Position numbers and translations under genes: made by a program. Below are positions 19,444-33,900 of a stretch of 64,000 nt of DNA, in pieces. Position 1 is the first letter of the stretch, and each line of letters starts with the position of its first letter. The notes under the pieces were generated by a model, which was not told the origin of the DNA, searched no databases, and saw only the letters and a program-made list of their open reading frames with translations. Source of the DNA: Saprospiraceae bacterium. GTDB lineage: Bacteria > Bacteroidota > Bacteroidia > Chitinophagales > Saprospiraceae. The stretch covers positions 1 through 64,000 of the forward strand of contig JAJCYI010000138.1 of NCBI GenBank assembly GCA_029263015.1. Direction: 5' to 3'.

Positions 19444-22400
19444 ATGTACAAATCCAACCTTTACACAAAATTGATACTCTTGGTATCTTTCATGGTGTTG
19501 GGCTTCAGCTCGGCTTATGCACAGCTTGAGATGAAACTACAACTCATGGATGATGACACTTGGGGTGTATATGTTACGCCAAACGGTGTTTCACCTGACT
19601 CTTCGACCATTACTGGATCGGGTCAGGTTACGGTAGTTATGCCTACTGGCTTTTCATGGTCGGGGCTGACGAGCGTTAGCGGTTTATGGCAACAAAATGC
19701 CACCGTTACTGCTCCTGCTGAAGACCCAACCAGGGATTACGTTTCGTATGGTTTGCTTCAAGCAGAGCCAACCTATCCTATTTTTTATCAAGCTGGTGTG
19801 GAAACATTGCTCTTTACCTTCAACAGGGACGGGGCTTGTCCAGATACCATGCACTTAATAGATTGTGGGACACCTACTGAATCAGATCCTTTCTGTCCAC
19901 CCAACTCGGTGAACTCTAACCCTGGTAATGACCTTCAGGTAATACAGTTTAGTCCAAGTTTAGTTTTTTATAATTATACTGACAATTATGCACCATCGGC
20001 CTGGAGCTGTCACGATTGTGATGGGGATGGCATCTTGAATGGTTTGGAAGATTCAAACGGTAACGGTGTATTTGACGTCGGAATTGATACCTCTGCATTG
20101 TGTGATCCCTGTGATCCGATTCATGTAGAATCGGCTACCTTGAATTTTGTGGATGGATTTGATGCAATTTGTGCTGGCGATGTTATTGACACGGCTTATA
20201 TGACCGTTGATATAGTAGGCGGCTGGTCTCCATATACTGTTTTGTTGGACAACGGTACAACCATTGATTCATTTTTTCTTTATGAAACAGGTGATACAAT
20301 CGCAGTGGTGCCAACGGCATCTACTGTTTATACATTAGATATTGTCATTGACTCGTTCCTTTGTGCTATTGCGCCAGATTCGATGTTTGGCTCCATTAGT
20401 ATCGAAGTACACGGGCCAATATCGATTACGTCTGATCCAGCACCAGATCCGAATGTTGAATGTTCGGAAGATGGGACATTCTTCTTGGCTTCAGCAGCAA
20501 ATGCTGGCCTTGATGGTACTATTTTCTATAAGTGGCAAATCAGTACAACTGGCCTTGGTGGTGCATATGGTGATGTAAATGATGGCCAGGTCTATGATGG
20601 AACAGATACAGATTCCTTATCGATCGATCCGATAGCAGGGCTTCATGGAAGTTACTATCGGATGAAGATTTGGACCGAACAGTGTGATACTGTATTTTCA
20701 ACTGGTGCACTGCTCCAGGTCGAAGGTCCAGTTTCGGCGACTGTCGATCCTGTAGATTTTGTGGTTTGTGATAATTCAACGGCAACCTTCTCAGCTGCTG
20801 GTGCCAATGCAGGCGCAGTAGGTACACTACAATATCAGTGGCAGATAAATGATGGGGTAAATGGTTGGTTAGATGTGCCTTCAGGCAACGAACCAGCTGG
20901 TGTTACCTATAGCAATGCCACTACTACTAATTTGACAATCAATAATGTAGATGTAGGCATGGATGGCTGGCTGGTAAGAATGGCCATTTATACCAATACT
21001 TGTAATAGGGTATTTACATTGGATGCTACAATTGATGTAGAAGGTCCAGTTACAGTGACCAATCATCCTGACGACGTGTCAAATTGTGCTGGAAATGAAG
21101 TGTTCTTCATTACAAATTACACCAATCCGGGAGGAGGAATTTCTACTTCTTTCTGGCAAGTGAATGATGGTTCTGGTTGGGTAAATATCTCAAACGGAGC
21201 TGGTGTCTATTCAGGTATTACTGATACTGATACTTCAACTGTAGCGACTGATACTTTGACCATTACCAATGTACTTGGTTTGAATGGTAACCAATATCGT
21301 CTGTCCATTGAGACAGGAACTTGTACTACCATTTACTCAAATGGGGCGACCCTTGACGTAAGTGGAAATGTAACATTTACACAAGAACCACCTTTTGCGC
21401 CTATTAATATATGTGCAGGCAACGACACTATTATTGTGGCTTGTGCAACGATTCCACAAGGAACTTTTTTCTTCTCTTGGGAATACTCAACTGACGGAGG
21501 TGCAACATGGGATTCACTGACCATTGGAGCGGATCCGGTTTACGACCAAAGCTCAAACGGTGCGACCATGTCAAATGGATGTGATACTTTGATTATCAAT
21601 GATGCAACGGGTCTCCAATATACTTGGTACCGTGCAGTAGCAACCGCTTCTGACTGTATCAATGTTGAATCAACAGAAGCACGATTGATTGTGGAAGGTC
21701 CACTTTCTGTGAACACCAACCCATCAGATACATCAATCTGTTCTGGTGATCCGGTTGAGTTCAACGCTTTGATCGATAATGCTGGTGATACTTCGACAGT
21801 CTTGTTGTACCAGTGGCAATATTCTCCTGATAATGTAATTTGGGTTGACATCATAGGTGGCGTTTATAGTGGTGAAAATTCCAGTACACTTGTTATATTG
21901 GATGTAGCTGGATTGCACCAATCGCATTATCGTATGGCTACTTCAACAAGTGATTGTGGATTTATTTATACAGCTTCAGCCGAGTTGTTGGTTGAAGGGC
22001 CGATCACAGTAACTACAAATCCTCAGGATGTTAACTTGTGTTTCAACGATGGGGCTACTTTCACTTCCACAGCAGATCCTGGATTCTCAGGTACACTGTC
22101 TTATCAGTGGCAAGTAAGTTCTGACGGTGTGAACTATTCCGATATTGGTGCTGGCACCGATGGTGGGGTTTACAGTGGTTATACTACTACGACTCTTACA
22201 GTTAGTAGTGCAACTGGTCTTTACAATCGCAGCTATCGCTTGGCATTCTCAACTGGAGAATGTTCCAGGTTGGTTTCTTCTTCAGCCGAATTGATTGTAC
22301 AGGGTGAAGTCACTATTACTGACCAGCCTGATGATATTACGGAATGTTCTGGTGATGAAGTTTTCTTCCAGGTTGTTGTTTCTGATGCATCCCCAGATTT

Positions 22401-25400
22401 TGCTGGTGATACTACTCACCTTATTTACCAGTGGCAAATGAATGATGGCTCTGGTTGGGTTGATTTGACAAACGGATTGATTGCTTCTGGAGGTGATGGA
22501 GTAAATGGAGTGACAACAAGTTTCCTAACTCCATTTGAAACTGCTGGAATGGATAATAACCAATTCCGTGTGCTTGTATGGACTCAATACTGTGATACTT
22601 TAATTTCATCGGCAGCTACTTTGTTCCTCGAAGGACCATTGTCTTTCACACTGCAACCTATTGATACTTCACAATGTGAAGGTTCAGGCGTTTCGTTTAC
22701 TTCAACAGCTGTGAATGCTGGTCTGGCTGCTATTAGTTACAACTGGCAGTATAGTAATGACGACGGTATTAACTGGTCGAATTTGACCAATGGTGGCGAC
22801 TATACCATCGCAGGGGCAACTACCACTACAATCACTTATGACACAGTAGGTTATGACTTGAATGCTGACCGGATTCGTTTGGCGGCATGGACAGCATTTT
22901 GTGATACTATTTATTCAGAATACGCACAGTTTGAAGTAGAAGGGGACATCAGGGTATCTGTTGATCCTGTTGACGTGACCGCTTGTTCTGGCGATCCAGT
23001 ATGTTTCGATATTACAACTGAAAATGATGGGGCTGGTAGCATCTTCTACAGATGGCAGTTTTCAGCTGATGGTTCAACTTGGTTTGATCTTTCAAACTCA
23101 AGTACCTACAATGGCACTGGTACCAATACTATGTGTATAGCTGATATTTCAGGACTTGATTCTTTGCAATACCGTTGCCGTATCAATACTGCACAATGTG
23201 CGATAGAATATTCAGCTGCTGCATTGTTGGTAGAAGAAGGACCTATCACATTTACCGACCATCCTGATGATATTACGCAGTGTTCTGCTGAAGCCGTAAC
23301 CTTTGAAGGTTTGGCAGGTATTCAGGCTGGTAACTCTGGAACAATTTCTTACCAATGGCAAGAATCTTCAGATGGAATTAATTATACTGACATAGTTGCT
23401 GCTGGTGCTCCTGGTTATGCAGGATTTACCACAACGACATTGACTGTCGTAAATGTGGCAGGCTTAAATGGATGGCATTACCGCTTGGTAGCAACAACAG
23501 GTGTTTGTACGGAAGTATTCTCGTTTCCAGGAGTGCTGAATGTAGAAGGACCACTTTCCGTTTCATTACAACCAGTTGGCATACAGAACTGTGATGATGC
23601 AGAGGCATTGTTCCTATCTCAGATCACCAACCCAGCCGATCCTCAGAACTTACAGACTGAGTACCAGTGGCAAATACTGCTGCCAAGTGGCACATGGGAA
23701 GATTTGACAAATGGTGATTCTTGGAACGGCACCAACATCGTTGGTGGTGCAAATAGCGATACACTTTTGATTACACCGCTTTCAGGACTGAACGGTGCAT
23801 ATGTTAGGATGAAGGGTTGGACACAAACCTGTGATACTTTGACGACAGACAGTGCTTTGATCGCAGTTGAAGGTCCGTTGACTTTCACCGACCAACCTGA
23901 TGATGTGACCTTGTGTTCTTCATCTGCCGTACAATTTACAGTTGCTATCGATAATGCAACCGGTGTAGGTACTGCTCAGTACCAGTGGGAAGTTTCAGTG
24001 AATGGCTTCGTCTGGGCTGACCTTACGAATACTGGAGTCTATACTGGTGTTACGACCAATCAATTGACGATCAGTAATACCACGGGATTATACAATTATA
24101 AATACCGCTGTAAGATACGAACAGGAACTTGTGAGTGGACATTCTCAACACTTGCACAATTGTTTGTGGAAGGACCTATCAACATTGACACTGATCTAAC
24201 GGATCAAACGATCTGTAGTAATGTTGGTATCATTCTCGATTCAGAGATTTCATTGCCTGCTGCTTCTTCTGGAGCATTAAACTTCCAATGGCAAGTAAGT
24301 GATAATAGTGGTAGTTCTTGGGCCAATTTGGCAGATAACCAATCTACTGGAACTACAGGTTCATACAATGGTGATGTTACAGGAAGTGGTACATACTTCG
24401 GCGTAACAAGTGAAGACCTGAATATTTCACTGGTTGAAGGTTTGAATGGGTACATGTACCGGATACTCATCTGGACAAGTACTTGTAACGATACGACGTT
24501 TGAAATGACCTTGACGGTTGAGGATGCATGTTTCACTGGAACTTGCGACTTTGACCTCGATGGTGATGATAATGATACCGATCTTGATGATGACAATGAC
24601 CAATTGACAGACGTTTGGGAGGATTACCTCACGGTAAATAACGTTACCGACAGTTGGTTCTACCTCGAAGAAGCGTTAGGTCTGGTATCGCCAGTAGGTA
24701 ATGCAGGTTCACCAAACCTAATCGATTATAGCAATTGTGATAGTGATTCTGACAATGACGGAACATTGGACAACCAGGAAGATCCTGACGGTGACGAAAT
24801 CAATAACGGTGAAGAAACCGATGGTGATGGCGTCTTTGACGGTGATCCACTTGATCCTTGTGATCCTGTTCTTGGGCCTACATGTATCGGAATCCAACTT
24901 GCGATCGACGTTTACCTGCAAGGTGGGCATATTGGAAATTCAGTCTCTTACCCTGAACCAATGCGTGCTGATCTAAGGGACGACGTTGACTTCCCAATCG
25001 GTGAACCATATACAGGTATTGTAGATGATCTTGTTCCTTCCAATGTTGACACACCATTTGTTCACGTTGCTGACGGTGGTTTGGAAGTAATTGATGGAAA
25101 TGGTGCATCTATCTTACTTGTTGGTGGCCAAGATGCAGTTGTTGACTGGGTATTCGTAGAATTGCGTTCTTCAACCAACTTGGACAGCGTTATCACTACC
25201 CGGGCAGCATTGTTGCAAGCCGACGGTGACATTGTTGACATGGATGGTGTATCCGACCTTGGATTCATTAATGCTCCGGCTGGACCTTACTACGTAGTGG
25301 TGCGGCATAGGAACCACTTGGGGATCATGACGTCAGAGGCACTTGATCTTAGCCCTATCGTAACTGTAGTTGACTTTACAGATCCATCCACTTCGACTTA

Positions 25401-25764
25401 TGGAGATTTTGGACAGGTTGCGGTCAATAGCTTCAATTACTTATGGGGCGGTGATTTCAACGCCAACGGCCGTACTGTTTATCAAGGGCCGTTCAATGAT
25501 ATTAATTACTTGTTTGCTGATATTGTAATAGATCAGACGGAAAAATTCCTCGATCCAGCAAGTCCAGATTATGATCCAGATTACGACATAATCGCTAACT
25601 GGATCAGGTTGGGGTACATGCGTTCGGATATTAACCTGGACGGGAAATGTATCTACCAAGGGCCTTCCAACGACCGTGCAATGATGCTCTTTAACACTAC
25701 GTTGAGCCATCCATTGAACAGTGGAAATATCGCCAACTTTGTAATTGAAGGAATACTACCGTAA
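19444..25764 (+). CDS. Giant secreted surface protein with 13 Ig-like repeats
   Basis: The 2106-residue protein starts with a signal peptide (residues 1-26, ending SSAYAQ). Residues 27-200 are beta-rich, followed by a Ca-binding-like DCDGDGILNGLEDSNGNG segment. From about 322 to 1692 come 13 tandem Ig-like units of about 100-130 residues. Each opens like GPxxxTxxPxD, has a Cys in the first strand, a central YQWQ...SxDG or NDGS motif and a YR(L/M/C) strand, and ends LxVEG. Residues 1695-1813 are Asp-rich TSP3-like segments. Residues about 1814-2106 form a C-terminal module shared with the giant protein at 30927-40349, holding two DxNxxG...YQGPxND motifs. It is probably exported and surface-displayed, acting in adhesion or matrix building (inference). 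No canonical YPNP-type T9SS tail is seen. A strong terminator follows. Confidence 0.9.
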   Translation: MYKSNLYTKLILLVSFMVLGFSSAYAQLEMKLQLMDDDTWGVYVTPNGVSPDSSTITGSGQVTVVMPTGFSWSGLTSVSGLWQQNATVTAPAEDPTRDYVSYGLLQAEPTYPIFYQAGVETLLFTFNRDGACPDTMHLIDCGTPTESDPFCPPNSVNSNPGNDLQVIQFSPSLVFYNYTDNYAPSAWSCHDCDGDGILNGLEDSNGNGVFDVGIDTSALCDPCDPIHVESATLNFVDGFDAICAGDVIDTAYMTVDIVGGWSPYTVLLDNGTTIDSFFLYETGDTIAVVPTASTVYTLDIVIDSFLCAIAPDSMFGSISIEVHGPISITSDPAPDPNVECSEDGTFFLASAANAGLDGTIFYKWQISTTGLGGAYGDVNDGQVYDGTDTDSLSIDPIAGLHGSYYRMKIWTEQCDTVFSTGALLQVEGPVSATVDPVDFVVCDNSTATFSAAGANAGAVGTLQYQWQINDGVNGWLDVPSGNEPAGVTYSNATTTNLTINNVDVGMDGWLVRMAIYTNTCNRVFTLDATIDVEGPVTVTNHPDDVSNCAGNEVFFITNYTNPGGGISTSFWQVNDGSGWVNISNGAGVYSGITDTDTSTVATDTLTITNVLGLNGNQYRLSIETGTCTTIYSNGATLDVSGNVTFTQEPPFAPINICAGNDTIIVACATIPQGTFFFSWEYSTDGGATWDSLTIGADPVYDQSSNGATMSNGCDTLIINDATGLQYTWYRAVATASDCINVESTEARLIVEGPLSVNTNPSDTSICSGDPVEFNALIDNAGDTSTVLLYQWQYSPDNVIWVDIIGGVYSGENSSTLVILDVAGLHQSHYRMATSTSDCGFIYTASAELLVEGPITVTTNPQDVNLCFNDGATFTSTADPGFSGTLSYQWQVSSDGVNYSDIGAGTDGGVYSGYTTTTLTVSSATGLYNRSYRLAFSTGECSRLVSSSAELIVQGEVTITDQPDDITECSGDEVFFQVVVSDASPDFAGDTTHLIYQWQMNDGSGWVDLTNGLIASGGDGVNGVTTSFLTPFETAGMDNNQFRVLVWTQYCDTLISSAATLFLEGPLSFTLQPIDTSQCEGSGVSFTSTAVNAGLAAISYNWQYSNDDGINWSNLTNGGDYTIAGATTTTITYDTVGYDLNADRIRLAAWTAFCDTIYSEYAQFEVEGDIRVSVDPVDVTACSGDPVCFDITTENDGAGSIFYRWQFSADGSTWFDLSNSSTYNGTGTNTMCIADISGLDSLQYRCRINTAQCAIEYSAAALLVEEGPITFTDHPDDITQCSAEAVTFEGLAGIQAGNSGTISYQWQESSDGINYTDIVAAGAPGYAGFTTTTLTVVNVAGLNGWHYRLVATTGVCTEVFSFPGVLNVEGPLSVSLQPVGIQNCDDAEALFLSQITNPADPQNLQTEYQWQILLPSGTWEDLTNGDSWNGTNIVGGANSDTLLITPLSGLNGAYVRMKGWTQTCDTLTTDSALIAVEGPLTFTDQPDDVTLCSSSAVQFTVAIDNATGVGTAQYQWEVSVNGFVWADLTNTGVYTGVTTNQLTISNTTGLYNYKYRCKIRTGTCEWTFSTLAQLFVEGPINIDTDLTDQTICSNVGIILDSEISLPAASSGALNFQWQVSDNSGSSWANLADNQSTGTTGSYNGDVTGSGTYFGVTSEDLNISLVEGLNGYMYRILIWTSTCNDTTFEMTLTVEDACFTGTCDFDLDGDDNDTDLDDDNDQLTDVWEDYLTVNNVTDSWFYLEEALGLVSPVGNAGSPNLIDYSNCDSDSDNDGTLDNQEDPDGDEINNGEETDGDGVFDGDPLDPCDPVLGPTCIGIQLAIDVYLQGGHIGNSVSYPEPMRADLRDDVDFPIGEPYTGIVDDLVPSNVDTPFVHVADGGLEVIDGNGASILLVGGQDAVVDWVFVELRSSTNLDSVITTRAALLQADGDIVDMDGVSDLGFINAPAGPYYVVVRHRNHLGIMTSEALDLSPIVTVVDFTDPSTSTYGDFGQVAVNSFNYLWGGDFNANGRTVYQGPFNDINYLFADIVIDQTEKFLDPASPDYDPDYDIIANWIRLGYMRSDINLDGKCIYQGPSNDRAMMLFNTTLSHPLNSGNIANFVIEGILP

Positions 25765-25856
25765 TGTGGACTGAATGAAACGGTGTTTTAATAAAACAAC
25801 GTTTTCATTTCCGATTATACAATGATTTTCCGGATAACTCCGGGTTATGAAACTTT

Positions 25857-25892
25857 GGCCGCACCTTTTAAAGGTGCGGCCATTTGTTTTTT
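25857..25892 (+). terminator. Terminator of the 2106-residue surface-protein gene
   Basis: GGCCGCACCTTT and AAAGGTGCGGCC pair around one base and are followed by ATTTGTTTTTT. It lies 93 bp past the stop codon. Confidence 0.9.
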
Positions 25893-25977
25893 GGATCAAG
25901 GGTTTAAGGGTTCTTGGTTTTTGGTTTTTAGTTCTTGGTTGTGACTGCATCGTAATTGGGAAATATTTTACTAATAC

Positions 25978-26031
25978 CCATTCACCATTCACCATTCACC
26001 ATTTACCATTCACCATTCATCATTCATCATT
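25978..26031. repeat. Heptamer tandem repeat (CATTCAC)n
   Basis: About eight units of CATTCAC / CATTTAC / CATTCAT run up to the stop codon of gldC (minus strand). The unit is the same as in the small array at 2341-2364. Confidence 0.9.
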
Positions 26032-26033
26032 TT

Positions 26034-26387
26034 TCATTTTTCACTCTTCAAAACCCCTGTTTTTTCACCAAAATACTGAACGAACTTTTGCATATCGGTT
26101 GCCATCACATTGTTTTGAGTAGCCTTAAAGTAGGTGTCCGCCAAGGCCCGTAACGTCTGGAAGAAAAAACGATCCATTTCGTTGACCTGCATTTCGTTTG
26201 TCCAAAGGTCTATTTTTATAGTGTCCAAAGTTTCACGGTCAAAAAGGGAAAGAAGGAGCGCCTTACAGTGTTGGGGCTTGTCTTTGTTGGCACTGTCGTC
26301 AGCATCCCATTCTATTGCCACTGGCACATTGGATTCGTTAAGGCCAATGTTGATCCTTATTTGTGATGATTTACTTGGTTTGTCCAT
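26034..26387 (-). CDS. gldC: Gliding motility protein GldC
   Basis: The 117-residue product starting at MDKPSKSSQIRINIGL fits GldC. Family features are the N-terminal SQIRINIGLNESNVPVAIEW, the central KIDLWTNEMQVNEMDRFFF and DTYFKATQNN near the C-terminus. GldC is a small soluble protein found with the Bacteroidota gliding/T9SS machinery and supports gliding; its precise action is not settled. An open frame extends upstream to 26483, but those 32 codons run through a hairpin and have no family resemblance, so I chose the ATG at 26387. It follows the NAD(P)-binding protein gene with a hairpin between them. Several T9SS cargo proteins are encoded nearby. Confidence 0.88.
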   Translation of the reverse strand: MDKPSKSSQIRINIGLNESNVPVAIEWDADDSANKDKPQHCKALLLSLFDRETLDTIKIDLWTNEMQVNEMDRFFFQTLRALADTYFKATQNNVMATDMQKFVQYFGEKTGVLKSEK

Positions 26388-26441
26388 ATCTGAATAATTG
26401 AAGGTTTGGTTTGAGCTGTAAAAGAATGAAATATTTAGTCC

Positions 26442-26474
26442 AAAGGTGACCCCTTTCCAAAAGGTGTCATCTTT
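26442..26474. repeat. GGTGACACC-family hairpin upstream of gldC
   Basis: AAAGGTGACCCCTTT and AAAGGTGTCATCTTT form an imperfect stem (two mismatches) between the stop of the gene at 26480 and the gldC start. It is a variant of the perfect hairpin at 50481-50514. Confidence 0.65.
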
Positions 26475-26479
26475 ATACA

Positions 26480-27172
26480 TCATTGCCCTGCATCGACCTC
26501 CTCGGCAAGCTTTTGCAGCCAGTGGGAGGGGTAAATATGTGCTCCTTTTTTAAGACCCTGGGCAGCACCGATCATGGCTTTGGCAACAATATCTGCTTCG
26601 ATGGGTCTGTATTTGGAAAGCAACCCACCAGTAAAGCGGTCAAATACTTTCCCGATTTTTCCGGCCAGTTTTTCTCCAAACCTGTTTTCGTTGCGTTCAC
26701 CTAAAAGGACCGAGGGGCGGAAAATATGAGTTGCCCAAAAGTCAAGCTGCTGCACTGCATTTTCCAATTCACCTTTTATTTGGCTGTAATAAAAACGGGA
26801 GTTGATACTGGCCCCGACGGAAGACACCAGCAGTAATTGGTTGGCACCGTTCTTATGGGCCATTTTTGCTGCGTTCCAGTTATATTCATAATCCACTTTC
26901 CGGAAAGCCTCTTTGCTGCCAGCTTTGGCCATAGTGGTGCCGAGACAGAGGAAAAGGTCATCCCCTCCGACAAGTTGATGCCATTTGTCTGGTTGGTCAA
27001 AATCAATCTGGTGAACTTCCAATTTCTCGTGTTCGAATGCCAAAGGTCGTCTGGTAAATGCAATTATCTTTTGGTAGGCCGGATCCAAAAGCAGGAATTG
27101 GAGAAGGTGTGAGCCGACCATTCCGGTAGCCCCAAATAGGAGTGCCGTTTTATCGTGTTTGTGGATTTCCAT
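26480..27172 (-). CDS. NAD(P)-binding Rossmann protein (TIP30/HTATIP2-like)
   Basis: The 230-residue protein has the dinucleotide-binding motif ALLFGATGMVGSHLL at the N-terminus, LFLCLGTTMAKAGSKEAFRK, LLLVSSVGAS, the YYSQIKGELE segment holding the YxxxK-like pair, and THIFRPSVLLGER. These are typical of small atypical SDRs annotated as NAD(P)H-binding or TIP30-like oxidoreductases. They bind NADPH; a substrate is usually unknown. It lies between a secreted-nuclease gene and gldC on the same strand. A terminator hairpin separates it from the nuclease gene. The start fits the family, with the motif beginning at residue 10. Confidence 0.85.
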   Translation of the reverse strand: MEIHKHDKTALLFGATGMVGSHLLQFLLLDPAYQKIIAFTRRPLAFEHEKLEVHQIDFDQPDKWHQLVGGDDLFLCLGTTMAKAGSKEAFRKVDYEYNWNAAKMAHKNGANQLLLVSSVGASINSRFYYSQIKGELENAVQQLDFWATHIFRPSVLLGERNENRFGEKLAGKIGKVFDRFTGGLLSKYRPIEADIVAKAMIGAAQGLKKGAHIYPSHWLQKLAEEVDAGQ

Positions 27173-27203
27173 TGTTTTGTGGGAAAAATTGGTCTGGTAA
27201 AAT

Positions 27204-27236
27204 AGAAGCGACGCTTTTTAGAAAAGCGTCGCTTCT
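27204..27236. terminator. GAAGCGACGC hairpin after the endonuclease-family gene
   Basis: AGAAGCGACGCTTTT and AAAAGCGTCGCTTCT form a near-perfect 15-bp stem. It lies 9 bp after the stop of the minus-strand gene at 27245. The exact reverse complement of this 33-bp sequence occurs at 29040-29072. Confidence 0.8.
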
Positions 27237-27244
27237 CGAATCGG

Positions 27245-29014
27245 TTAAAGCTTGATGATTTTTGATATGGCAATCCCGTTTTTGGTTTTCATTTTTAAGA
27301 AATAAATACCAGGAGCTTGTTGGGAAATGTCGAACCCGATTGAATGCTGGCCATGCGTAAAAGATTCTTGCCAGGATATTATAGTCCTGCCCGTGGGGTC
27401 GAACAGGTAGAAGTCAATTTCCTGACTGTTTTTTATTCCAAAATCCAAAGAAAAATATCCAGGGTTCGGATTAGGTGAAACTATCAGATCTAAAGCAAAT
27501 GCATCATCGGTCGTTGCCAAGGGTTCTAGAATCATTGATAAGTCCACAACTTTAGGCAAGTGATCAGATGCTGCTGCAACATCAAATGATTGTAAACCAT
27601 ATTGATTGAGCCTGGCTTGGGACATGGAAGAGGTTTCGAGGGTGAATGTATTTTCGACTTGTAAATACTCTGAAGTGATATGGTAATCAATTCTGGAAGG
27701 AGGGAAACTACTGAAATCGTTGCGCCACGTATAAGCGAGCCTATCATCAGAATGTCGGCTTATGACATCTTGCAAATCACTGCCATTGGAATTCATCGGT
27801 CCACCTTGTCCGAATTGACCTGTGTTTACAATTTCACCAGTGAGAAGCGTGGTCAATTGTTGCTGTTCCCCAACCAAATTTAAGTCGCCAGATAAAACGA
27901 ATGGAGTAAATTCTGGTAGATCAATTATACCACCGGGTGTTTTGGCATCTAAGATGAATTGAACAAATGCATCTGCCTCAAGCTGACGCTGATAATCATT
28001 GTCACAACATCTAAAATGGGCATTGATAACCAATAGGTCGAAACTGTCTATGTTATTGGGGATATCAATCAAAGAGGCAGTTAGTCGGTGGCCGGGAAAT
28101 ATCGACCAACTTTGTAGGATAGGGTAGCGTGATGCGGTCACGTTGCCCTGATCGAGTTTTACGGCATTCCAATTTTGAAAATTTCCGAGCGGGACGGAGG
28201 CATTCATAAAAGTTGCAACTTGTGAAGCATTCATGTCCCAGCATTCATTGAAAGTAACAATGTCAGGCATTAAAAGACCAACTATTTTGTCAAAAATAGG
28301 TTTGCGGTCAAAGTCATCGAGGCCAGTGTTCAAAGTGTTCCAAGAAAGCAGTCGGATTGCTGATTGGTTTTCTTTTTCAAGCTCGATCAACTCAAGTTGT
28401 TGCGAAGGGCTGTCATCAAAAAGATAAGTGAACACAATGCCATTTTCAGGCATCACATCACCTGATTGGCCAGTTTCGTCTTTCCAAACAATGCTGACAC
28501 CATTGGCATTGAACAAGCTGAAACCTGCATTGGATAAAGCACTCAGGTCGAGGGAAATTTCAAAAACAGTATTGGTCACGGTCGGTTGGTGACGGAATAT
28601 CAAATCGTTGAGCGACATAAAACCCTGGCCGCTTGGCAATTTATAAAATGCTTCCCTTTCGCCCAGCCTCACTTCCAGGTCGACACCGATCCCATTTAAT
28701 GAAGTGCCAGTGTTGGGGTTCAAGTCAGTATCGAGATGGAGGGTAAGCTTGTGGCCTTCGGTCAGGCCGAATTCATCTTTTACTTCAATTTGTAAAAAAA
28801 GATGGTTTTCGTCATTGGCTACTTCAAAACGGAGCAGGTCAATATTGTCCCCGTCACCTGTAGCATCAGTGATTTCGATGGCCTCAGCTGTCCAGTCATC
28901 AAATTGACTGTCAATGACAATGGGAAGAGATTGAGAAAATAAGATGCCAGTATTTAGCAGAAAAATAAAGGTGTAGATAAATGCTGAACCTATGAAGTGG
29001 AATATTTTCCTCAT
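27245..29014 (-). CDS. Secreted endonuclease/exonuclease/phosphatase-family protein with T9SS tail
   Basis: The 589-residue protein has a signal peptide (residues about 1-28). An N-terminal beta-sandwich follows at about 30-210 (VIDSQFDDWTAEAIEITDAT), similar to CBM9/DOMON-type domains. An EEP fold lies at about 220-500: RLLSWNTLNTG, FNECWD for the metal-binding Glu, NAHFRCC, SGDLNLVGE, RIDYHI and SDHLPKVVDL are the expected catalytic motifs. The C-terminal 80 residues are a T9SS type A sorting domain (LIVSPNPNPGYFSLDF ... ISQQAPGIYFLKM). The enzyme is probably exported and cell-surface attached, degrading nucleic acids or phosphodiesters to gain phosphate or nucleosides (inference). It is bracketed by two inverted copies of the same hairpin. 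Confidence 0.88.
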   Translation of the reverse strand: MRKIFHFIGSAFIYTFIFLLNTGILFSQSLPIVIDSQFDDWTAEAIEITDATGDGDNIDLLRFEVANDENHLFLQIEVKDEFGLTEGHKLTLHLDTDLNPNTGTSLNGIGVDLEVRLGEREAFYKLPSGQGFMSLNDLIFRHQPTVTNTVFEISLDLSALSNAGFSLFNANGVSIVWKDETGQSGDVMPENGIVFTYLFDDSPSQQLELIELEKENQSAIRLLSWNTLNTGLDDFDRKPIFDKIVGLLMPDIVTFNECWDMNASQVATFMNASVPLGNFQNWNAVKLDQGNVTASRYPILQSWSIFPGHRLTASLIDIPNNIDSFDLLVINAHFRCCDNDYQRQLEADAFVQFILDAKTPGGIIDLPEFTPFVLSGDLNLVGEQQQLTTLLTGEIVNTGQFGQGGPMNSNGSDLQDVISRHSDDRLAYTWRNDFSSFPPSRIDYHITSEYLQVENTFTLETSSMSQARLNQYGLQSFDVAAASDHLPKVVDLSMILEPLATTDDAFALDLIVSPNPNPGYFSLDFGIKNSQEIDFYLFDPTGRTIISWQESFTHGQHSIGFDISQQAPGIYFLKMKTKNGIAISKIIKL

Positions 29015-29039
29015 TTATTATTGCAAATTTCAAGAGCCA

Positions 29040-29072
29040 AGAAGCGACGCTTTTCTAAAAAGCGTCGCTTCT
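29040..29072. terminator. GAAGCGACGC hairpin after the amidase gene
   Basis: This is the exact reverse complement of 27204-27236, with a 15-bp stem and TTCTA centre. It lies 24 bp past the stop of the amidase gene (minus strand) and just upstream of the endonuclease gene. Confidence 0.8.
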
Positions 29073-29095
29073 GAGGTTTTGGATAATTTGCAAAG

Positions 29096-30316
29096 TTACC
29101 AGTTTTCGACTAACCCTTGGAATAACCAATCTGCGAGCAACTGTCTGTTTCTTGGGACAATGATCCTTTGCTGGTCGGTGGGATGTCGGATATTACCAAT
29201 TTCAATGTATGCGGAAGTTACTTTTGTTTCGCGGAGCATGTGAAGGTCTCTCGAAGTTACACTGCCATCATACCCTCTGCCTTTGCGGTATTTTTTATAA
29301 TTGGCTTCCATGCTCTTGTGCATTTTGGTTGCCAGTTTTTTGCCATTTGGGTCGTCAGGATGATAATAAAAATATAGATCGGTTTGATTCCCCTTACCTC
29401 GTGAATCCACATGGATAACAATCAGTTTTTGTTCTTTGACCCCTTGTTTTTGGTGTTTGTCAAATAGCTCATTGATGGCGTCTGAACGCTGGAATAAACG
29501 TGGCTTCTGAGGACTTGGAACGACTAGATTCCCCCAGGTAACTTCGTCATTGTCGCAATCAAGATATTCTATATCACGTATGCCATCATTGGGGTCGCGG
29601 GTAATCATGTATGCGGTGGCACCGTGCGCAATTAGGTTACGGACAAGCCTGAGCGACACGTCATAAGCATATTCATCTTCACAGAGTTGGTGTTTTCCTT
29701 TTTTGGCAATGGCACCGGGGTCCGGGCCGCCATGACCACTTTCTATGTAAAATACTTTCCCTAGCAGTTTTTGGGATTTCAGTGGCGTATAAGCATATTT
29801 TTTCCCGAAAATGGGAAAGTTGCGACCAGATACTGGCTTAGTGGCCAGGCCATTGGTTTGACTGATTATTTTAGAGGGCTTTTCTTCTATGATGGGAATA
29901 TCATCAATTGGGCAATTGAGCAGGTGATAGGGCACCCAAAGGATTTTGTCTTTTTTAAAGGACTTTTCACGGTAGCCATCTTGGAGCATCGAATCATTGT
30001 ATTTTTCGATTTCCTTTGCAGTATTCCAGTCGTCAATGCCAACAGAGGAACGGATGGTCTTGCCGTTGTATTTGTAAACAAGGATCGGCAATTGATACTT
30101 AACACCGATCTTTAATGGAGATCCATTTTTAAGGTTGTTTATATCATAAAACTTGGAATGATTGCAAGAGTGAGCATCCAGTTTATATCGCCTCAACAAG
30201 GAATAGACACCATCTCCAGGCAAGGCGGTCGCTTTGTGGTAAGTGGCTTCGCCAGCCGTAAGAGAAATGCTCAGTTGGGCAAAAATTAAGACGGCAATCA
30301 ATTTAAAGAAGTTCAT
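29096..30316 (-). CDS. N-acetylmuramoyl-L-alanine amidase
   Basis: From MNFFKLIAVLIFAQ this is a 406-residue exported protein; an upstream Met 15 codons earlier gives a poorer signal peptide. After the signal come two LysM-like stretches (about GDGVYSLLRRYKL ... KIGVKYQLPI and a second ending ILWVPYH). The C-terminal half (about 190-400) is an Amidase_3 domain: VFYIESGHGGPDPGA with the Zn-binding His, the Glu in CEDEYAYDVSLRLVRNL, IVIHVDSRG where SxHxN is usual, and AYIEIGNIRHPTD with the catalytic Glu. It should cleave the amide bond between MurNAc and the stem peptide during cell separation or wall turnover. The family usually reads SIHxNA where this protein has VIHVDS, a modest divergence. 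Confidence 0.85.
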   Translation of the reverse strand: MNFFKLIAVLIFAQLSISLTAGEATYHKATALPGDGVYSLLRRYKLDAHSCNHSKFYDINNLKNGSPLKIGVKYQLPILVYKYNGKTIRSSVGIDDWNTAKEIEKYNDSMLQDGYREKSFKKDKILWVPYHLLNCPIDDIPIIEEKPSKIISQTNGLATKPVSGRNFPIFGKKYAYTPLKSQKLLGKVFYIESGHGGPDPGAIAKKGKHQLCEDEYAYDVSLRLVRNLIAHGATAYMITRDPNDGIRDIEYLDCDNDEVTWGNLVVPSPQKPRLFQRSDAINELFDKHQKQGVKEQKLIVIHVDSRGKGNQTDLYFYYHPDDPNGKKLATKMHKSMEANYKKYRKGRGYDGSVTSRDLHMLRETKVTSAYIEIGNIRHPTDQQRIIVPRNRQLLADWLFQGLVENW

Positions 30317-30470
30317 TTCACCGAAGTTGTTGTGGCTGTTTGTATGTCTTACTTCAGGCACGAAATTATTGAAAGGCTACAATTTTGCCAAGTTTTGACC
30401 TTGATTCTAATCTGGGCATGGAATGAACGGATCGGCGATAAGTAATATTCTGTGCAGTTGGGCCAAATAA

Positions 30471-30880
30471 AAGAGCCGGCCAGTTACCTGGCACGGCTTC
30501 CAATTCTCCCTCTCATAAGTTCTTTGGTTTACTTAGGTCTCAGGGTTCAGGGTTTTGAGAAAGAGCCAACCGAAAGTGACTGTCGGTATGGCTTCCAATT
30601 CTCCCTCTCATAAGTTCTTTGGTTTAAATAGGCTTCAGGTTTACAATAGTCCGTGCAGGTTTTCAATAATCTAAAATGTTAGATAATTATTATTTTGTAA
30701 GATCCTGTTAATCAGCATGTTGAAAAATAATTCTTTATTTTTCTTTATTTTATAACTAATTGACAATCAATTAATTATAAAACCTGCACGGACTATTGGT
30801 TTAAAGATTTTGAGAAAGAGCCAACCGACAGTAACTGTCGGTATGGCTTCCAATTCTCCCTCTCATAAGTTCTTTGGTTT
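30471..30880. repeat. Triplicate hairpin-plus-tail repeat
   Basis: Three units share AAGAGCC, a variable short stem-loop, GGCTT, and an identical 36-bp tail (30495-30530, 30590-30625, 30845-30880; it begins GGCTTCCAATTCTCCC and ends TTCTTTGGTTT). The stem is GGCCAGTTACCTGGC in unit 1, ACCGAAAGTGACTGTCGGT in unit 2 and ACCGACAGTAACTGTCGGT in unit 3. Stem changes keep pairing while the tail stays fixed. On the minus strand the hairpins lie downstream of the giant-protein gene, so tandem transcription-end structures are likely. Confidence 0.85.
30644..30798. mobile_element. MITE-like element, copy 1 (155 bp)
   Basis: Perfect 20-bp terminal inverted repeats beginning CAATAGTCCGTGCA enclose A/T-rich non-coding DNA. 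The element is flanked by GTTTA on both sides, a probable 5-bp target duplication. It is inserted between units 2 and 3 of the hairpin repeat. A second element with the same 14-bp ends is at 56820-56984. Confidence 0.8.
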
Positions 30881-30926
30881 ATTGGAGTATTGGCCCGTAG
30901 GAACCAATACTCCAGTAAACCGTCCC

Positions 30927-33900
30927 CTATGGCAATTTAACTGTGAGTATGTAATTGGCTAAATGATTCATATTTTCTGCTGACCCCAATATGCTGTGGA
31001 AAAGGATTTTGGCTTTGTCGTTATTAGGGCCTTGGAATATCGTATAAGTATCTAAGTTGACATCATAAGTTGTGTAGCCAAAACTGACGTAATTGGCCAA
31101 ATTGTCAACATTGTCAACATCGGTCATTATGTGGAACAAAATGAAGATTACATCATTTGTCGGGCCTTGGAAAATAACATTTCCATTACTGTTTACATCT
31201 CCAGGCCATAATGCCAATTGGTTGTTTTGGTCAGCCGCAGCGAAGTTGTCCCATAAGTCTGCATTAGGGGCAACAAAATCAATAGGAGGGGAAAATGGCG
31301 ATAATATGATAGAATTACCAGTAGCAACCCCAAGGTGGTTTCTATGTTTTACCGAAACAAAATAAGAACCACTAGGAACTTGGCTAAAAAATACTTTGGA
31401 GGTTCCATCCATATCTGTTACGGTGCCATCTTTTTTCAATAGGGCTGAACGAGTAGCAATGACACTGCTAGGGTCAATAGGAGACCGCAATTCTATCATT
31501 ACCCAATCGATTACTGCGTCAGGGCCAGTGGAGGATAGCACCCCTGGGTACAATATCTCCCCCCCTCCTTCGCCCACGTGGTTGAAATTTGGGAGGTCGG
31601 TATAAGGTTCTTGTATTGGGATCAAGTTGCCTTCACGAAGATCATCCCGCATGTCTTGACTGCCAATATTATCCATGACGGCTCCGTGCAATTTCATTTT
31701 TACATCAACGACAACACCGACACAGGAAGCATTGACCAATGGGTCGCATGGGTTTCTTGGATCACTTTCCCCTGGGCCATCCACCATGCCGTTTTGATTT
31801 AGGTCTTCAACCCCATCATCAAGTCCATCATCATCGGTATCTGAATTTAGGGGATCGGTTTCTATTCCAAAGTCGTATGCTCCGTCATGGTTGGCATCTT
31901 CCACACCATCACTGATGAGGTCGTCGTCGCTATCGGTATCCAGCCATCCTGTTTCACCTTCATCGGTTGTGCCATTACCATTTTTATCTTCGAGGTTGTC
32001 AGGGATGAGGTCATTATCACTATCGGTATCAAGGAAATTAGGAATGCTGTCGCCATCGTCATCTAAATCCGGTTCACCGTTAAACTCACCAAAAGTACCA
32101 TCGGGATTTATTCCTCCATATGCGCTATTTCCCGCATCTCCAGAATCTTCTGGCCTTCCATCGTCTGTTGCACCTTCTCCATCGGTAAATATAGTTCCAA
32201 CCTGATTGTCATCGAACCCGTCAGAGTTGCCATCTGAGAAATTATCTATTTCACCGTCGTTGTCAATATCCAACGATGCATATCCAATTTCGATAATGTC
32301 ATTTATATTGTCGTTGTCGCTATCTGTGTCCAAAAAATTTGGAGAGCCATCTGAATCAGCATCGCCTCCATTATAGGCTGTACCATCACCGTCATCATCT
32401 TCGGGTTTGCCATCTTCCGTTGCTCCATCTGGGTCTGTTGTGATTAAGCCTGTGGTTTCATACTGATCATTGAAACCGTTGTTGTTCACATCTGTAAATT
32501 CACCCGCATCGATAATACCATCTCCATTTGTATCAATACCTCCAGATTCAATCAGGTCGGGAATACCATCGTTGTCGCTGTCCAAATCGTAAAAATTGGG
32601 TATTCCATCCCCATCAAAATCAGGGTTAAATCCACTGCCACCTCCCATATAACTCCCATTGTTGTGAGAGACCAATATATCCCCAGATTGATCGATACCA
32701 AAAGCGGTGTCGTCATCAGGGTCATAATAATCGGAGAAGCCGTCACCATCTGCATCCAAAATACTTTCGGCAACGCCGGGTAAAGGATATTCTATGACAC
32801 CGTTTCCATCTGTATCCATGCCCCCTGCTTCAATCAGGTCAGGTATGCCATCATTGTCAGAATCAAGGTCAATATAATTGGGTACACCATCACCATCTAC
32901 ATCTGTGATGGGGCTGGTAGGATCAAAATTGCTTGAAGCTATTTCACTGGGATCGTTCGGGTCTCCATCAAAAACGTTGGCAAGACCATCATTGTCTATA
33001 TCCCAATCAGGCGTACCATAAGTGTCCACAATGCCATCGCCATTAGCATCGGTGAAGCCCGCTTCGATAATATCGGGTATTCCGTCGTTGTCGCTGTCAA
33101 GGTCTTGGGAGTCAGGTATTCCGTCGTTATCCGTGTCAGCAGTTCCTTCAACAACATCTGGTATGCCGTCATTATCGTCATCAAGGTCAAACGGATCAGG
33201 TAGCCCGTCCTCATCTGCGTCATTGTCGTTGAATAGTGTGATGGTTTGCATTTGAGAGACGCTGTTTCCACAATAATCTTCCAAACTCCAGCGCCTCAAG
33301 ATGTAACCGACACAGCCATTTACATTTGCCCAATCGTCCACGTAAGTGGCTTCGAGGCCAGTGACGCAATTGTCGTATTCGTCCAAAACGTCACCTGTAA
33401 TGTTTAGGTCATTTTCATCGGTCAAACAAGTAATGGTAACATCAGCAGGAACAGTGAATGAGGGTGGCATTGTATCCAGTAGAGTATAAACTTGAACCAA
33501 CGTAGTTTCATTTCCACATTCATCCTGTACATGGAATGTTCGGGTATAGATGGTATCGTTTACACAATCGAAAAGAAACGGACTGTCGGTCACAGTCAAA
33601 GGTGTTGAATTGTCACAATTGTCTTTTCCAACTATTTCCACACCAATTGTTGGAATGTCTGGAATACTATTGCAATCCACAACTTGGTCGAAAGGAATAC
33701 TGCCTTCAACAACCAAATAAGTTAAATCTTCAATCAGGTGTGTTCCATCATTGTACTCCCATTCTTCTATATGTACTTGAAATGATCCTGTGGTCAAATT
33801 TTCCACTCTTAAGACTCCTTCCTCGTTTCCGTTCATGGTAATTCCTCCGAAAACTACTACAGGGTTGTGGTAAGTGTGGGCGAGATTGACAGTCACCAAA

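Follow-up and report, generated by a model that had tools for sequence, protein, structure and literature searches.

Two giant open reading frames on opposite strands of a Saprospiraceae bacterium contig share a C-terminal module and carry no sorting tail of the type IX secretion system (T9SS), which raises the question of what the module does and how its carriers are held at the cell surface. We have investigated this question starting from a stretch of 64,000 nucleotides (GenBank assembly GCA_029263015.1, contig JAJCYI010000138.1, positions 1 to 64,000; hereafter the window), following the module and a second family, represented by the N-terminal domain (ND) of one of the two proteins, through the window's own genome, its relatives and more distant bacteria. 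The analysis computed homology, folds, conservation at the loop positions, the order and co-occurrence of the genes and the distribution of sorting tails; combined, these suggest that module and ND probably constitute a sequence-divergent, non-cellulosomal docking system resembling the cohesin/X-dockerin pair.

A shared C-terminal module and its predicted fold

The initial annotation proposed that the two proteins end in a common module, and this is borne out: the C-terminal modules are 38% identical across 313 residues (E 2e-70), and the CDP..C(I/V)G entry and terminal LP are present in both. The features concerned are as follows.

19444..25764, plus strand: protein 1, an open reading frame of 2106 amino acids (signal peptide, ND, immunoglobulin (Ig)-like repeats, short DxDxDG stretch, C-terminal X-dockerin-like module)
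19516..20013, plus strand: ND of protein 1, residues 25-190, a predicted cohesin-like nine-strand beta-sandwich
24853..25761, plus strand: module of protein 1, DPCDP entry through terminal LP
24883..25443, plus strand: X-module-like Ig-fold half of the protein 1 module, VDWVxVELR ... VRHRNHLG, model residues 5-191
25453..25500, plus strand: calcium-type loop 1 of protein 1, DFNANGRTVYQGPFND, then helix
25627..25674, plus strand: calcium-type loop 2 of protein 1, DINLDGKCIYQGPSND, then helix
30927..40382, minus strand: protein 2, 3151 amino acids counted from GTG (signal peptide, PA14, laminin-G, HYR, Ig-like domains, DxDxDG stretch, C-terminal module)
30930..31754, minus strand: module of protein 2, from alignment with the protein 1 module
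31152..31199, minus strand: calcium-type loop 1 of protein 2, DVNSNGNVIFQGPTND, from sequence
31017..31064, minus strand: calcium-type loop 2 of protein 2, DVNLDTYTIFQGPNND, position 6 being T, not G, from sequence

The minus-strand range first assigned to the module, 30927-31722, cannot be divided into complete codons and is replaced by that listed. Two D-x-N-x-x-x...(Y/F)QGPxND repeats occur in both proteins as claimed, save for the glycine of the motif in repeat 2 of protein 2. The statement that the rest of the two proteins is unrelated was too strong, as the remainders share weak Ig-like repeats (best E 4e-7, ~25% identity), while the reported lack of a T9SS tail stands, no tail model matching either protein. 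Signal peptides in both proteins and the Ig-like repeats of protein 1 are by-eye readings. ND was not found in protein 2, in which an ATG is located 11 codons past the GTG, ahead of the signal-peptide-like stretch.

Searches with the module detected no Pfam or NCBIfam family above cut-off and no PDB sequence match, the PDB sequence searches returning nothing or chance-level matches. For family-wide comparison, 73 of 78 eligible modules were aligned with the two from the window (alignment A2, 75 modules), the set being restricted to frames ending near the module, such that tails longer than ~60 residues were excluded beforehand and internal carriers were scanned apart. Pfam yielded weak Ig-type matches alone in the 75 modules (Y_Y_Y in 13, best E 0.0016), and Dockerin_1 matched none of these 75 long-form modules, including those of the window. 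The AlphaFold2 model of the module is a single compact unit (predicted local distance difference test, pLDDT, 93.4; predicted template modelling score, pTM, 0.91) in which an Ig-like sandwich is followed by two loop-strand-helix repeats. Foldseek ranked an X-module/type II dockerin first, weakly (E 0.025), and in VIA-align, a structural re-alignment of Foldseek's own list, X-module/type II dockerin dyads take all of ranks 1-8 (Z 7.0-8.3 over 146-152 aligned residues), row 9 being at Z 5.6, and seven of the top eight rows reach model residue 297. It is this gap in Z and the near-full coverage of the dyad that carry the weight, as structures that are not truly related often give best Z values of 7-8 too. 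The predicted model thus places an Ig-like module directly N-terminal of a dockerin-like unit, with a whole-length structural match at moderate Z, and two D-x-N-x-D calcium-type loops, each followed by a helix, are found in both model and alignment.

Putative calcium-ligand positions are near-invariant in repeat 2 (D in 75/75, N/D in 74/75, D/N in 73/75 and D/E in 74/75) and fairly well kept in repeat 1 (D/N in 75/75, N in 41 of these; N/D in 57/75, D/N in 70/75 and D/E in 73/75), a pattern from which metal binding appears likely. Long-form modules carry a four-residue insertion in each loop relative to the 12-residue dockerin loop. In the type II dockerin of Acetivibrio cellulolyticus ScaA, loop 1 is reported to be extended by four residues, one loop compared with both in this module, and the X-module to resemble carboxypeptidase D domain II, 1qmu (PMC5141474). 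The latter structure is also in the module's VIA-align list (Z 4.9). Loops of short-loop relatives look canonical, and among nine such relatives scanned with Dockerin_1 one (L028) scores 28.2 bits against a cut-off of 22.9, two fall below cut-off and six have no match; in three more frames, from genomes G007 (contig C11) and G018 (C37, C39), coordinate comparison places a Dockerin_1 match above cut-off directly after the Ig-like half. The dockerin-like calcium-binding unit offered as one option by the initial annotation therefore fits the dyad fold ranks, the conserved loop positions and some Dockerin_1 matches in short-loop relatives, and the structure prediction it called for returned two calcium-type loop-helix repeats, dockerin-like, in the model.

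Like the scaffoldin X-module/type II dockerin dyads (CipA/ScaA, CipB; PDB 2b59, 4fl4, 5m0y, 4u3s), the module combines an Ig-like domain with two loop-helix calcium-type repeats in a usually C-terminal position. It differs from the cellulosomal dyads in sharing 12-16% identity with them in structural alignments, in lacking a Dockerin_1 match in its long form and in the size of its Ig-like half, ~190 residues versus 98 in CipB.

Distribution and position of the module

In the window's own genome, nine module matches were detected by one sequence and 10 by profile, at least six carriers being long-form, and the corresponding searches of 60 relatives found the module in 27 and 28 genomes, respectively. 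The locus set comprises 80 loci of at least 569 confirmed candidates in a contig scan, from Bacteroidota (Saprospiraceae, Chitinophagales, Spirosoma, Runella, Emticicia, Flectobacillus, Flavobacterium and Lewinella) and from gammaproteobacteria (Thiothrix fructosivorans, Thiofilum flexile and a Thiotrichaceae metagenome-assembled genome, MAG). Gammaproteobacterial modules form one group in an unrooted tree (17 rows, at least three of them duplicates; support 100/99), which is compatible with one transfer.

Whether the module is always C-terminal was addressed by a profile scan of all 80 loci, which gave 112 module frames, some of them fragments (the motif list covered 85 frames in 68 of the 80 loci). 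The location is mostly C-terminal: among the 107 frames closed at their end, 100 finish within 20 residues past the module and seven run on for 168-1009 residues, so that with L083, cut by the locus end, 8/112 frames carry an internal module. Most internal modules are followed by DxDxDG repeats of thrombospondin-3 type, and at six loci (L077, L084, L086, L087, L090 and L093) the internal module and these repeats precede cysteine-rich ends that resemble one another (mostly ..GDxCGPC..) and that no sorting model matched. Some copies in the window's genus and in genome G015 stand alone, as proteins of ~260-320 residues that have a signal-peptide-like start and are often encoded in tandem. At L039-L045, where these signal-peptide-plus-module proteins are mostly tandem, a neighbouring conserved gene has a start that looks twin-arginine-like by eye; L039, L041, L043 and L044 also have nearby a giant protein containing two ND copies, and the end of that at L044 resembles a T9SS type B tail.

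These positions bear on a proposal, also among the options first listed, that the module is itself a sorting or anchoring domain which brings the giants to the outer surface or fixes them there, as an alternative to T9SS tails. Its C-terminal place on Bacteroidota surface proteins is that of the T9SS type A and B sorting domains (TIGR04183, TIGR04131), the beginnings of carriers look, by eye, like signal peptides, and scanning 82 ends revealed none of the known sorting tails: no NCBIfam model at E 0.01 matched any of the 75 module ends, and no sorting model matched the ends of seven of the eight internal-module carriers (NCBIfam only; L083 being cut by the locus end). The module nevertheless differs from the T9SS sorting domains, with no TIGR04183, TIGR04131, Por_Secre_tail or CHU_C match in the 75 modules and with other best folds, those of the dockerin dyad. 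SprA, the T9SS translocon, was detected in 11/11 Bacteroidota tested but in 0/3 module-bearing gammaproteobacterial genomes tested, and stand-alone copies have no cargo to be sorted. The hosts in which SprA was not detected, the stand-alone copies and the internal copies make it unlikely that the module, in part of its family at least, serves in T9SS sorting, and identity of the module with a T9SS sorting domain was rejected on the missing tail-model matches, the non-C-terminal copies and the hosts in which SprA was not found. We consider the wider sorting or anchoring proposal quite unlikely as well; if the module contributes to anchoring, it probably does so indirectly, via a partner protein bearing the anchor.

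Domains detected in the seven of 112 carrier frames scanned are cadherin, Ig, VWA, GEVED, CshA and Sortilin-Vps10 repeats. No glycosidase was found in these seven and the module's hosts are Gram-negative, both unlike the cellulosome system.

Several further observations concern module distribution. Thiofilum genome G061 contains 25 module matches in 3.8 Mb, and G016, G018 and G047 contain at least 36-41 each, with no ND and almost no Pfam cohesin, the module being of the short-loop form in the one locus viewed from each. One module (L133) is on a contig labelled Williamsia sp. (MAG), probably misassigned, and a 144-codon frame on contig C224 of the window's own genome (L052:8385-8816) encodes a partial module without the upstream half, possibly a remnant.

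The ND family, its gene order and its sorting tails

The ND family, which the initial annotation does not mention, was recognised by resemblance between the N-terminal domain of a Thiothrix carrier and that of window protein 1. It is present in 29 of the 112 carrier frames, N-terminally in those viewed, and in separate proteins adjoining carriers, as detected by a profile partly built from the same loci it was scanned against; 69 of 89 ND domains were aligned with that of the window (alignment A3). No Pfam match, including to the Pfam cohesin PF00963, and no PDB sequence match was obtained with ND, and hhalign indicated no relation between ND and the module. The ND model contains nine strands (pLDDT 92.6, pTM 0.89). 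A cohesin fold was expected before the structural search was made, and 38 of the 50 rows listed by VIA-align are cohesins (hand count; best Z 8.7). ND thus appears cohesin-like at the fold level only, sharing with cohesins (PF00963, type I and II) the predicted nine-strand beta-sandwich and the occurrence of single or multiple copies per protein, from one to at least five (L128), but differing in the lack of a Pfam or profile match, for which reason it is not filed as a cohesin member.

Gene order links ND to the module in one direction. An ND frame follows within 600 nt on the same strand in 52 of the 92 carriers with at least 900 nt of downstream sequence; among the 51 carriers with at least 900 nt upstream, seven are preceded by an ND frame, and in just three of the seven is that frame ND-only, the others being carriers too. 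After clustering at 70% identity (111 frames kept), the corresponding values are 37/73 for ND downstream versus 3/42 for ND-only upstream. In all 56 downstream frames ND starts at residue 24-81, where a signal peptide would precede it. Series of genes encoding module, then ND plus module, then ND without module are observed at L110, L120, L125, L130 and L136; at L128 a carrier is followed by the protein with at least five ND copies, and on contig C198 of the window's own genome an ND-plus-module frame of 2862 codons is followed by an ND protein with a T9SS tail.

Co-occurrence is similarly asymmetric. ND was never found alone in two samples of 60 genomes: the relatives (module 28, ND 18, both 18, ND alone 0) and the Thiothrix family (module 24, ND 22, both 22, ND alone 0). 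In a Bacteroidota-wide sample of 198 genomes the module is present in 27 and ND in one, the window's own. ND thus largely tracks the long-form module, and the short form must have another partner or none.

Sorting tails were scored with NCBIfam models at E 0.01 as per-family counts, in which one end may figure more than once. Among 39 of 42 ND-only ends (set A4; two with runs of N and one 75-residue fragment were left out), from 27 loci that include some near-identical species pairs, 17 matched T9SS-A, two T9SS-B, eight CVP-CTERM and one IPTL-CTERM, and 24 of the 39 belong to proteins directly downstream of a carrier. In the window's own genome a T9SS domain is above cut-off on seven of 10 ND-only proteins (four type A, three type B; an eleventh, cut, was left out), including ones in which ND is present two or three times. 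The CVP-CTERM proteins appear, judging from their ends by eye, to be those of Runella, Spirosoma and relatives (e.g. L119, L121, L123, L125 and L130), and the putative CVP-CTERM sorting signal may be linked to the ND system.

It could be argued that module and ND are structural or adhesive domains of co-expressed surface proteins which do not bind one another. Both occur in large repeat-rich surface proteins, mirror-tree comparison gave no specific signal, and ND matches cohesins in fold alone. Against this reading, gene order runs in one direction, sorting tails were detected on ND proteins but on no module carrier end scanned, ND was seen solely in genomes that also have the module in the samples taken from two phyla, and separate searches arrived at dockerin-like and cohesin-like folds that match one another. 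Absence of mutual binding is, in our estimate, rather improbable.

The proposed docking system, its weak points and its known counterparts

In the docking system we favour, the module would be a plug working like the X-module/type II dockerin dyad of scaffoldins, its Ig-like half stabilising the two calcium-loop-helix repeats, which would bind a cohesin-like receptor, most likely the ND family including the N-terminal domain of window protein 1. Secreted carriers without an anchor would attach to ND proteins that are themselves fixed to the cell by lineage-specific means, namely a T9SS type A or B tail, CVP-CTERM or IPTL-CTERM. Proteins with both ND and module, such as window protein 1, would be adaptors connecting a distal carrier to a proximal ND anchor and giving rise to surface chains, and window protein 2, which has a module and in which ND was not found, would be a distal component. 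That the loops bind calcium, that ND and module bind each other, that chains form and that they serve adhesion are deductions; adhesion or matrix building is the likely purpose because adhesin-type domains are present on the scanned carriers and PA14, laminin-G and HYR on protein 2. The chances appear about even that these parts form a previously unrecognised kit, its receptor without detectable sequence similarity to known cohesins, in which each module inserts into the N-terminal ND of the protein encoded by the following gene, giant adhesin chains are assembled head-to-tail in two Gram-negative phyla, and the last link carries the lineage anchor. In the literature covered (titles and abstract openings, mostly open-access), no description of the ND-module pair was found, and the motif strings YQGPNND and HRNHLG gave no match.

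Several results weigh against this docking system. Structural matches are moderate, VIA-align itself warning that Z 7-8 is typical of models without a clear match, and Foldseek gave no match better than E 0.001 for either the module or the ND model. In the ND list of VIA-align an N-terminal domain of GH20 (Z 8.4) is tied with the cohesins (8.7), Foldseek placed endoglucanase chains first and the first cohesin fifth, and hhalign showed no relation (E 0.28) between the ND profile and the Pfam cohesins of these genomes. No ND adjoins 40/92 carriers, and neither window protein has an ND gene next door, ND candidates for them being located elsewhere in their genome. The module occurs without ND in 10/28 relatives (nine viewed, at one locus each, are short-loop or divergent), in 2/24 Thiothrix-family genomes (the copy in G085, L151, is long-form) and in 26/27 of the Bacteroidota-wide genomes (nine loci viewed are mostly short or divergent, L173 apparently long-form). 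Mirror-tree correlation of the module is r 0.227 with the downstream ND and 0.214 with the ND of its own protein, relatedness confounding both. If the per-family tail counts do not overlap, 11/39 ND-only ends are without a listed sorting tail, and docking gives no account of how carriers pass across the outer membrane.

A different receptor was also considered, ordinary Pfam-type cohesins (PF00963), which are abundant in the genus. They are present in 39/60 relatives and matched 14 times in one scan of the window's own genome and 22 times in another, and their co-occurrence with the module is weak (both 22, module only 5, cohesin only 17, neither 16; Fisher p 0.03, phylogeny ignored). However, no PF00963 match was found in 10/14 module-bearing genomes tested, including all three gammaproteobacteria, and in 17/60 relatives cohesins are present without the module. 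Given this poor tracking across genomes, Pfam cohesins were rejected as main partner of the module, and binding to them is very unlikely. A second, separate cohesin/dockerin set is observed in the genus: on nine contigs of the window's own genome (G000; C46, C55, C77, C124, C128, C160, C189, C205 and C210), Pfam cohesin and Dockerin_1 occur in the same large frames, some of the Dockerin_1 matches being below cut-off. Because the two share open frames on these contigs, the PF00963 cohesins of the genus may have their own dockerins.

The ND-module docking system would have close counterparts in cellulosomes. The receptor of the cellulosome dyad is located on cell-surface anchor proteins, to which the anchored ND proteins are likened, and adaptor and anchoring scaffoldins likewise combine a receptor domain with a docking module or with a surface anchor; scaffoldin systems differ in their cellulases, the seven scanned carriers having adhesin-type or repeat domains instead. 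The contact between cohesin and dockerin, known mostly from cellulosomes, ranks among the strongest protein interactions known, and Thiothrix-type filaments are common in activated sludge. If the docking system is correct, a divergent pair would explain how anchorless giant adhesins stay on Bacteroidota and Thiothrix-type cells, and would provide functions for two domain families unnamed in the libraries searched as well as new orthogonal building blocks.

Elsewhere in the window, the minus-strand gene at 27245-29014 encodes an endonuclease/exonuclease-like protein whose end resembles a T9SS type A tail by eye.

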